Positions 41,822 to 45,929 of a stretch of DNA of 64,000 nt are shown here, one piece after another. The stretch's first letter is position 1. Every line of letters begins with the position of its first letter. The notes beneath the pieces are model-generated. The model was not told the origin of the DNA and made no database searches. It saw only the letters and a list, made by a program, of their open reading frames with translations. The stretch lies in NCBI GenBank assembly GCA_016195085.1, contig JACQAG010000039.1:1-64000 (forward strand), written 5' to 3'. This DNA is from Pseudomonadota bacterium. Its GTDB lineage: Bacteria; Pseudomonadota; Alphaproteobacteria; SHVZ01. Both the position numbers and the translations under genes were made by a program.

Positions 41822-43192
41822 CTAGCCGCGCTGCTGCCGTTGATGCTGGCGCTCGCGCTCGGCCTGCTGCAGCAGGTCCTGGGCGCGCAGCCAGCCCGGC
41901 GAGCCCGTCGGCAACAGCTGCTGGGCGCGCTTCGACTGCTGGATCGCATCGCGCAAGCGACCGTCGATGATCGCCTGCTCGGCCAAGGCGAGCGAGGCAT
42001 CGCCGATGCGGTTCTCGCGTCCGTAGACGATGCCGAGCAAGCGCCAGGCGAGCGAGAACTCCGGCTCGTGATTGACCGCATCGGAAAGGTTCTGCAGCGC
42101 ATCGGCATTGAGCTTCGGATCGTCGAGCTCGAGCTCGGTCTGCGCCAGGCCCACCCTGAGCAAGGCGGAGTTCGGCAGCAGCCGCACCGCCTCCTTATAG
42201 GAGGCCATCGCCGGCACGCCGCGGCCGTTCTCGAACAGCATCTGGCCCTTGAGCTCGTGATAGTAGGGATCGACCGGGTGCTCGGCGATGAGGCCGTCGA
42301 TGAGCGCCAGCGCCCGGTCGAGCTGCGGTATCCGATAGTAGGCGATCGCCCTGGCATAGCGCGCATATTCGGAGTTGTCGGTCTCCGGATAGGATTGCAG
42401 CGTGCGCCCGAGCGGCTCGGTGAAGCCGAGCAGCTTCGCCCGCACCCGCTGGAAGGCATACACCGCCCCCGGCGCGTCCGGCCGATCGGCGAAGCGCGAT
42501 TGGGCGACCGCGTTCTTCACGAAGTCGATGCGCTCGCGGGTGAGCGGATGGGTTCTGAGGTAGGGCGCTTGGCGCGAGGCGGAGAGCAGCTCCTGGTTCC
42601 ACAACGTCTCGAAAAACTCCAAGAGGCCGCGCGGCGATTGGCTGGTGTGGTCGAGGAAGGTGATGCCGGCCTGGTCGGCGGAGGATTCCTGTGTCCGGCT
42701 GAATTGCAACACATTGGCGGTGGCGAGCGTCTGGCCCACGCCGGCGACCGCACCCAACGCGTTGCCTTGGCCGGTGGCGATCGCCGCGCCGATGCCGAGC
42801 AGCATCGAAGCGATGGCCAAGGCCGAGGCCCCCTGCATCTGGTCGTTCCAGCGCGAGAGATGGCCGCCGGCGATATGGCCGGTCTCGTGCGCGATCACGC
42901 CGATGAGCTGATTGGGCGTTTCGGCCCGCATGATGGTGCCGGTGTTGAGGAACAGATTCTGACCGCCGGCGACGAAGGCGTTGAGCTGGTTGTCGCGGAT
43001 GATGTAAATGTGGACGTCGTTGGCATTCAGCCCGGCGGTCGTGAACAGTGGCGCCGCCAGGGTGCGGATGGTATTTTCCGTTTCCGCGTCGCGGATCAAG
43101 GATAACCGCTGCGCTTCGGCGATCGTCGGCGCATAACCAAACCAAGCCGCGAGCCCGGCAACGGCCATCGACGAAATGCGTTTTCTCAGCAA
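41822..43192 (-). CDS. BepA-like M48 family metalloprotease with TPR-like C-terminus
   Basis: 456 residues. A signal peptide (about 1-27) is followed by a M48 peptidase domain with HETGH (H102-E-x-x-H106) and NAFVAGGQNLFLNTGTI upstream; the third ligand is probably the Glu in RTQESSADQAG. The C-terminal half (about 265-440) has helical repeats of TPR character (ARAIAYYRIPQLDRALALIDGL). This plan is that of BepA/YfgC, a periplasmic protease-chaperone for outer-membrane proteins such as LptD. It is divergent from the gamma-glutamyltransferase-like gene, whose earliest start codon it overlaps by 17 bases. Confidence 0.9.
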   Translation of the reverse strand: MLRKRISSMAVAGLAAWFGYAPTIAEAQRLSLIRDAETENTIRTLAAPLFTTAGLNANDVHIYIIRDNQLNAFVAGGQNLFLNTGTIMRAETPNQLIGVIAHETGHIAGGHLSRWNDQMQGASALAIASMLLGIGAAIATGQGNALGAVAGVGQTLATANVLQFSRTQESSADQAGITFLDHTSQSPRGLLEFFETLWNQELLSASRQAPYLRTHPLTRERIDFVKNAVAQSRFADRPDAPGAVYAFQRVRAKLLGFTEPLGRTLQSYPETDNSEYARYARAIAYYRIPQLDRALALIDGLIAEHPVDPYYHELKGQMLFENGRGVPAMASYKEAVRLLPNSALLRVGLAQTELELDDPKLNADALQNLSDAVNHEPEFSLAWRLLGIVYGRENRIGDASLALAEQAIIDGRLRDAIQQSKRAQQLLPTGSPGWLRAQDLLQQAERERQHQRQQRG

Positions 43193-44780
43193 GTCCGCGC
43201 TTCCTTCGCCCGTGCGCCGTTTCCGCCGATACTGGCCGATGATCGTGCTCTTGGGCGCGGCGATTGGCCTTCAAGCATGTGGGAGCAGCAATCTACTAGG
43301 CAAGAGGCAAGAGGGCGATAGCTTCGCCGGCGGCGCCGTGGCCGACGAGCCCAGCGCCGCGCTGGCCGCCCGCGACATGCTGGCCGCCGGCGGCAGCGCC
43401 GCCGATGCGGCCGTCGCTGCTTCCTTCACCCTGGCCGTGAGCCTGCCCTCCTCGGCCGGGCTCGGCGGCGGCGGCAGCTGCCTCGTGTGGGAGAAGGCGA
43501 AGAAAGCGGCCCAGCTTCTCGACATGATCGAGCCCGCGGCCCCGCACGGCGACGTCGCGAGCCCGATGCTGGCCCGGCTCCTGTTCGCGCTCCATGCGCG
43601 CTATGGCCGCCAACCCTGGGCGCAAGCGGTCTCTCCGGCGGAGCAGCTGGCACGGTTTCCGCAGCCCATATCACGCGCCCAGGCGCGGGAACTTGCGGTG
43701 GCGCCGGCGGCGGTCTTGCGCGTGCTGGCCGAACAGCGCCTGTTCGTTCGAGCCGATGGCGGCGTGCTCGAGTAAGGCCAGCCTTCGGCGCAGGTTCAGC
43801 TCGCCGCCACGCTCGGGCAGATTCGCGCCCGCGGCGCCGGCGTGCTCTACACCGGCCCGGTCGCGCGCGAGCTGGCCCAAGCCTCGGCGGGCAAGATCTC
43901 GCTCGAGATGCTGAGCCAGACGCGCCCGCGCTGGCGCGAGCCGGCAAAGGTCGGCTTCGGCGACCGCACCGCCTATTTCACCATGGAACCGGAGCGGGCG
44001 GGGATGCTGGCGGCCCGCCTCCTCGCCCTGCTTGGCGACGGAAAGAGCTACGAAGAGACGCCCGAGGCCGAGCGCCCGCATCTTTTGGCCGAAGCGATGG
44101 CGCTGGCCGGGCGCGATCTCGCCCGCGACCAGATGAGCCGCGCCGGCGCGGTCCTCAGCGTTTATGGGCGCGACCAAGCCCGTTCGGCGATGGCCAGCTA
44201 CCGCGCCGATCGCCATGCGTCCGCCGACAGCGCCGGTGCTGAGGCCCCGATGCCCGCGCCACCCATCGGTTCCACCAGCCTGGTGGTCACCGATCGCGAC
44301 GGTCTCACGGTTGCATGCGCGCTCAGCATGAACGCGCCTTTCGGTACCGGACGCGCGCTTCCCGGCTTCGGCTTCCTCACCGCACCGGCCGAGCCCAAGG
44401 GCGAGGCCGCTGCCGCCGCCGTGATGGTGGGGACGCCCGACGGCGATCTCTTGCTGGCGGGGGCTTCCAGCGGCGGCAGTCCCGGCGCAGCCGCCTTGGA
44501 TCAGGTGGCGCTCGGCGTGCTGGCAGACCACTTGCCGGTCGATCGATCGATCGCCCGCCCCCGCCTCTGGCATTCGGGCGATGCCGACGTGCTGTACGAC
44601 GAAGCGCTGCCGGCTGCGATCGAGGAAGGGTTGCGGCGCCGCGGCCACCGGCTGCTTGCGGCACCTGCCCTGGGCCGCGTGAACGCGCTCGCCTGTCCCA
44701 TCGGCATGGCGCGCGCCATGGAGCGCTGTCGCCTGGAAGCCGACCCGCGCAGCAACGGCATTTGGGTCGGCGGAGGCTGA
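43176..44780 (+). pseudogene. Gamma-glutamyltransferase-like gene split by an in-frame stop
   Basis: Two halves in the same reading frame are separated by a single TAA at 43773-43775. The first codes for about 199 residues with a lipoprotein-like signal (MIVLLGAAIGLQAC, start ATG 43239 or 43176) and ARDMLAAGGSAADAAVAASFTL and GLGGGGS, the N-terminal hallmarks of gamma-glutamyltransferase. The second continues to the family C-terminus (STSLVVTDRDGLTVACALSMN, FGTG). Changing one base (TAA to GAA) would restore one frame of about 534 residues. The catalytic T-(S/T)-H segment reads T-S-L, so the product was already divergent. Readthrough or a sequencing error could explain the stop; otherwise the gene is dead. 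Confidence 0.75.
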
Positions 44781-44783
44781 TCC

Positions 44784-45929
44784 TTGCTCAAGATCGCCCG
44801 CCGCGGCCTGGTGCCCCCGTTCATCGTGATGGATATCCTGCGGCGGGCCAACGAACGCGCGGCGGCGGGGGGCGACGTGCTGCATCTCGAAGTGGGGCAG
44901 CCCTCGACCGGGGCGCCGGCAGCGGTGCTGGCGGCGGCCCATGAGGCGCTCGACGGCGAGACCCTCGGCTATACCGAGGCCCTCGGCCTGCCGGCGCTGC
45001 GGGAGACGATCGCCCGGCATTACCGCGACTATTACGCAATCTCCGTGCCGCCCGGCCGCATTGCGGTGACCACCGGCTCGTCCGCCGGCTTCATCCTGGC
45101 ATTCCTCGCCGCCTTCGAACCCGGCGACCGGGTGGCGCTGGCGGCACCGGGATATCCCGCCTACCGGAACATCCTGGCCGCACTCGGCATCGAGCCGGTC
45201 GAGCTCGCGGTCGGCGCCGAAAGCCGCTTCCAGCCGACCGTCGCCGATCTCGAAGCTGCGGGCCCGCTCGCCGGCCTCATCGTCGCCAGCCCGGCCAACC
45301 CGACGGGCACGGTCTTGAGCAGAGAGGCCCTCGGCCTCATCGCACAGCATTGCCGGGCCAACGGTATCCGCCTCATCTCGGATGAGATCTATCACGGCAT
45401 CGGCTACGGCCCGGCGATCACCAGCGCGCTCGTCCTCACCCATGAGGCGGTGGTGATCAACAGCTTCTCGAAATACTTCTCGATGACGGGTTGGCGGATC
45501 GGCTGGATGGTGATGCCGGAGGAGCTGGTGCGCCCGGTCGAGTGCTTGGCGCAGAACCTGTTCATCTCGCCGCCGAGCTTGGCGCAACTGGCGGCGGTCG
45601 CCGCGTTCGGCTGCCGCGCCGAGCTCGATCGGAACGTCGCCCGCTATGCCGAGAACCGCGCCATTCTGCTGCAAGGTTTGCCCGAGGCCGGTCTCGACAG
45701 CCTGGCCCCGGCCGACGGCGCCTTCTACGTCTATGCCGACGTCGGCCGCTTCACCAACGACAGCGAGGCGTTTTGTCGGCGCCTCTTGGCCGAGACCGGT
45801 GTGGCGATCACGCCCGGCGTCGACTTCGACCGCGAGCGCGGCCACCGCTGGGTCAGGTTGTCCTTCGCCGGCAGCACCGAAACGGTCGCCAGGGCCGTCG
45901 ACCGCATCGGTCCGTTCCTCCGGCGCTAG
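44784..45929 (+). CDS. PLP-dependent aminotransferase, class I/II
   Basis: 381 residues, fold-type I aminotransferase of the aspartate aminotransferase superfamily. Marks: YTEALGLPALRETIARHY (67-84), SPANPTGTVLS (substrate-side Asn), SDEIYHGIGY (PLP-binding Asp/Tyr), and NSFSKYFSMTGWRIGWMV with the PLP lysine. C-terminal RLSFAGS carries the carboxylate-binding Arg. TTG 44784 is taken as the start, with GGAGG seven bases upstream; the nearest in-frame ATG would cut conserved residues. The amino donor is not determinable. The gene follows the broken transferase by 3 bases. Its stop overlaps that of the convergent rne gene in the shared sequence CTAG. Confidence 0.9.
   Translation: MLKIARRGLVPPFIVMDILRRANERAAAGGDVLHLEVGQPSTGAPAAVLAAAHEALDGETLGYTEALGLPALRETIARHYRDYYAISVPPGRIAVTTGSSAGFILAFLAAFEPGDRVALAAPGYPAYRNILAALGIEPVELAVGAESRFQPTVADLEAAGPLAGLIVASPANPTGTVLSREALGLIAQHCRANGIRLISDEIYHGIGYGPAITSALVLTHEAVVINSFSKYFSMTGWRIGWMVMPEELVRPVECLAQNLFISPPSLAQLAAVAAFGCRAELDRNVARYAENRAILLQGLPEAGLDSLAPADGAFYVYADVGRFTNDSEAFCRRLLAETGVAITPGVDFDRERGHRWVRLSFAGSTETVARAVDRIGPFLRR

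Follow-up and report, generated by a model that had tools for sequence, protein, structure and literature searches.

A conserved lipoprotein gene with the fold of gamma-glutamyltransferase (GGT) is interrupted by a single in-frame TAA in the window, by which we mean the whole stretch of DNA analysed (64,000 nucleotides, the first 64 kb of contig C39 in a draft genome of 95 contigs, 4.81 Mb and 95.92% completeness). The best explanation is a single recent nonsense substitution in a gene whose alphaproteobacterial orthologs encode a conserved GGT-fold lipoprotein, a reading to which we assign a probability of roughly 0.55. It is supported by the restriction of the stop to one of 49 class-wide matches, by open frames in all 35 aligned relatives and by a coding signal that runs unbroken, while an upstream half that is the most diverged of 33 taxa relative to the neighbouring genes and a methionine in place of an invariant phenylalanine count against it. 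Here, we infer that the TAA is real rather than an assembly error. Translation would then yield only 187 to 199 residues and stop short of the strands bearing the former active site. What is made would be an N-terminal fragment, anchored by its lipid and unable to complete the fold, with probable loss of function. The remaining message would be left untranslated, and expression of the aminotransferase gene might fall through polarity. Taken alone, a nonsense interruption confined to one genome is ordinary and of little consequence.

The interrupted frame

The frame comprises 535 codons, including one internal TAA (codon 200) and a terminal TGA (Table 1). An initial annotation had described one reading frame with this TAA as its sole interruption and no visible frameshift, and the coordinates, the frame and the stop are all confirmed; both the GGT similarity and the coding signal cross the TAA, and alignment of the gene to 35 relatives revealed no frameshift. 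When the whole frame is compared with the PF01019 profile, with X at the stop, the match reaches 1.6e-55 (189 bits against a cut-off of 27), and the parts upstream and downstream of the TAA each match on their own, at 1.9e-20 and 1.8e-27, respectively. A coding model trained on the host genome was applied to the frame cut into 14 blocks of at most 40 codons. The score was above zero in 13 of 14 blocks, the sole exception being the first, which covers the signal-peptide region, and every block scored higher in this frame than in either of the remaining forward frames. One reverse frame scores higher still in the block closed by the TAA (43656-43775), yet contains a stop of its own. The lipoprotein-like signal that the same annotation had noted upstream is present, with its LQAC lipobox. 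The GTG start is as plausible as the ATG, and it leaves a compact signal peptide.

Table 1. Features of the GGT-like gene and its two neighbours, in window coordinates
Feature	Position	Strand	Remarks
BepA-like M48 metalloprotease gene, divergent neighbour	41822..43192	-	longest ORF overlaps first GGT-like start
Interrupted GGT-like lipoprotein gene	43176..44780	+	start ATG 43176 or GTG 43212; PF01019 on both sides of stop
Lipoprotein signal peptide, lipobox LQAC	43212..43280	+	Cys codon 43278-43280; Cys in 35/35 relatives
In-frame TAA	43773..43775	+	Glu 33, Asp 1, Ala 1 at same column in 35 relatives
Ser-Thr-Ser at places of E. coli GGT T391-T392-H393	44271..44279	+	from alignment to T391A precursor 2e0w
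PLP aminotransferase gene	44784..45929	+	three bases past GGT-like gene; conserved neighbour

The protein was modelled as read through, with Gln at the stop (mean pLDDT 87.4), and the modelled fold is that of GGT over its whole length. Among solved chains, uncleaved precursors come closest: 2e0w, the T391A precursor from E. coli, aligns best, over 464 residues at an rmsd of 2.6 (Z 45.4), followed by 4y23 (Z 39.8). The stop falls at model residue 188, in the loop that joins the helices at 166-174 and 195-207, and the former nucleophile lies 166 residues beyond it, at model residue 354. This position bears on the least probable of the readings that we weighed, in which the gene works as two separate proteins and the second half is restarted downstream. 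A GTG at 43842 does open a frame of 312 residues, but the coding signal resumes directly after the stop, 22 codons ahead of any start codon, and inspection by eye found no Shine-Dalgarno-like stretch before 43842. The break is also far from the natural maturation site of GGT, which corresponds to that same residue 354, and for this reason a two-chain arrangement is not favoured.

Relatives and gene neighbourhood

Matches at 1e-60 or below were found in 48 genomes of a class-wide sample of 385, 49 matches in total, and of these the window copy alone contains a stop within the frame. The alignment, A1, consists of the window protein and 35 relatives (36 rows), and every one of these relatives is unbroken across the stop column. 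Left out of A1 were the weak or partial loci L015-L019 and the loci L006-L009 and L013, which mark the same places as L021-L025; 18 of the 49 class-wide matches were given no locus in that search, and those without an existing locus stayed unaligned. The window gene is an ortholog of the alphaproteobacterial GGT-like lipoprotein. In all 35 aligned relatives the M48 gene precedes it on the opposite strand and the aminotransferase gene follows on the same strand, and among the five weak or partial loci the M48 gene adjoins in four and the aminotransferase gene in two. The M48 neighbour is BepA-like and scores below the BepA family cut-off (159.5 of 570 bits). The trio at 41822-45929 is kept across many alphaproteobacterial families, and in the window the start codons of the divergent pair almost touch.

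The host order is sampled by seven genomes and the host genus by the host genome only. In the tree, which was midpoint-rooted and carries the paralog L004 on a very long branch, the window protein belongs to a supported set of nine rows together with five rows of its own family and three of family f135 (97/92). It sits nearest the f135 rows, without firm support (94/79), on a long branch of 0.94, where the median is 0.43. An intact second copy was not found in the host genome, whose three further matches show 27 to 31% identity, and plasmid records searched for a further copy of the gene gave no match. A contig scan of further genomes returned six loci, all distant. Two other genomes, G002 and G005, gave no match to the GGT-like or the M48 protein at the limits used; both are drafts that are 77-89% complete and hence uninformative, so that gene loss within the family, considered from these two genomes, is unsupported.

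Several irregularities were seen in the neighbouring genes of relatives. The M48 matches of G003 and G006 each contain one TAG, probably because the match was extended beyond the genuine start codon, given that plain tblastn picks up these two only from residue 25. At L012 (2501-2899) the aminotransferase matches at its two ends only (query 2-61 and 305-380), a pattern resembling an internal deletion, and at L023 (325-1435), one of two trio copies in G004, the aminotransferase match lies in two frames.

Age of the break and the possibility of a base error

At columns conserved in at least 90% of relatives, the window protein keeps 24 of 25 conserved residues downstream of the stop and 33 of 37 upstream. 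The corresponding counts are 41 of 48 and 47 of 53 at the 80% limit, and 55 of 69 and 52 of 64 at the 70% limit. At these two lower limits the window ranks low among the relatives, both upstream and downstream: 5 (80%) and 8 (70%) of the 35 relatives keep fewer residues after the stop, and 6 and 2 keep fewer before it. The divergence of each half was also compared with that of the two neighbours in 33 of the 36 taxa, after removal of pairs that overlap only briefly. Relative to neighbour divergence, the downstream half ranks 9th lowest of the 33 and is not unusually diverged; the upstream half is the most diverged of all, with a mean residual of -0.045 (residual s.d. 0.044). Nothing in these comparisons suggests extra decay after the stop. 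Because the conserved downstream residues are kept (24 of 25), the break is either recent or a base error. The upstream half also contains unusual residues, such as a Met in the window where 35 of 35 relatives have Phe. Together with its high divergence, this hints that constraint before the stop may have been relaxed to some degree, in which case "very recent", as the initial annotation put it, would be only part of the story.

The same retention of downstream constraint would be seen if the gene were whole in the organism and the TAA had entered the draft consensus as a base error or from a minority variant. This is a substantial possibility that falls short of an even chance, and it gains from the draft state of the assembly (95 contigs, 95.92% complete) and from the wholeness of all aligned relatives. 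Evidence against it comes from a partial screen of 404 kb of the host genome, which yielded 36 cases of two stretches in one frame, each with coding signal, parted by a stop, frameshifts being outside its scope. The seven cases in which the first start codon lies at least 15 codons past the stop were examined, namely the GGT-like gene and six others, and 29 were left aside. None of the six other stops breaks a Pfam domain, which argues that such errors are infrequent.

Recoding and readthrough

The initial annotation had offered three accounts of the stop: a very recent nonsense mutation, a sequencing error or recoding. These were the right options to list, and the third has lost most of its ground. 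If the stop were read through or recoded, full-length protein would be made at some level, as might be thought from the full frame and the constraint kept downstream. In-frame stops in bacterial genes are moreover reported to be widespread and partly under constraint, with a dN/dS of 0.74 around in-frame TAA (PMC7918605). The window gene resembles these in-frame stops and nonsense pseudogenes in having a single stop in an otherwise intact gene, and differs in that its stop occurs in one genome only and is not common to orthologs. None of the 35 relatives has a stop at this column, TAA terminates 25 of 232 long coding frames in the 404 kb, and the anticodon TTA is found in none of 38 tRNAs predicted by ARAGORN, an incomplete set from which some normal tRNAs are missing. 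Recoding of the window TAA is unlikely because TAA is an ordinary stop here, no UAA-reading tRNA is among the 38 and no relative shares the stop, and production of full-length protein by either route has only a slim chance of being the explanation.

A change of code in which TAA became a sense codon was considered separately and rejected, since TAA ends those 25 frames and the six other no-start candidates of the 404 kb screen have no Pfam domain across the stop. The host genome does encode a tRNA-Sec with anticodon TCA, at L111 (G000:C84:53864-53954). This tRNA reads UGA, and the organism may recode UGA to selenocysteine.

Catalytic residues and the nature of the clade

A recent nonsense substitution, the reading that we prefer, would have struck a gene whose product had already departed from canonical GGT. 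Residues 391 to 393 of the wild-type E. coli enzyme are Thr-Thr-His. When the window protein is aligned to 2e0w, Ser (44271-44273) stands at the place of the nucleophile, Thr at the second place and Ser at that of His. Across the 35 relatives the nucleophile column holds Ala in 19, Gly in 11, Ser in 3 and Thr in 2, and the His column holds Ser in 20, Gly in 8, Ala in 6 and Thr in 1, with His in no row. The initial annotation had read this motif as T-S-L and considered it non-canonical before the break; non-canonical it is, in a register shifted by one, and this is a property of the whole clade rather than of the window copy alone. Two other GGT homologs in the host genome keep Thr at the nucleophile place and have Ser at the His place, so that a missing His alone says little. 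The combination of a mostly Ala or Gly nucleophile column with a His column devoid of His suggests that most of the clade cannot use the known GGT mechanism. The window protein itself is without the Thr nucleophile that catalytic GGT enzymes carry at the autocleavage site. It also scores 131.2 bits against TIGR00066, the NCBIfam gamma-glutamyltransferase equivalog, whose cut-off is 357.85 bits, and two intact relatives fall below the cut-off too (218.2 and 132.6 bits).

Four Cys besides that of the lipobox are invariant in all 36 rows (43479-43481, 44316-44318, 44694-44696 and 44727-44729), and could form disulfides, a metal site or a catalytic site. Canonical bacterial GGTs are not known to have these four Cys. 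In essence, the window protein shares with E. coli GGT (PF01019, PDB 2e0w) the family profile and the whole-length fold, and is set apart, along with its clade, as a lipoprotein with a nucleophile column that is mostly Ala or Gly (Ser in the window), no His after it, the four invariant Cys and, for the window protein, a score under the equivalog cut-off.

The clade is a better lead than the window stop. Its protein is a conserved GGT-fold lipoprotein, probably without a nucleophile. A more far-reaching and tentative proposal, which we consider rather doubtful as a whole, is that the clade represents an uncharacterised alphaproteobacterial lipoprotein pseudoenzyme, in which the Thr nucleophile has mostly been lost, maturation does not occur and the invariant Cys hold the protein together, and which would serve as a non-catalytic partner (e.g. 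substrate adaptor or chaperone) of the adjoining M48 protease in outer-membrane assembly. It is gene order that suggests the partner role. If the proposal holds, clade proteins would easily be misnamed gamma-glutamyltransferase in many alphaproteobacterial genomes, and the constant M48 neighbour would suggest a part in envelope assembly. A search of open papers for the clade, the gene trio or a broken GGT gene found nothing on the clade. Among known systems, LmbA-type GGT homologs (PDB 6j3a and 6j3i) share the GGT fold, with Z about 34.6, and are said to be without GGT activity (PMC6085292). LmbA is reported to keep an Ntn-hydrolase activity (PMC5519988), whereas the nucleophile of the clade is mostly lost.
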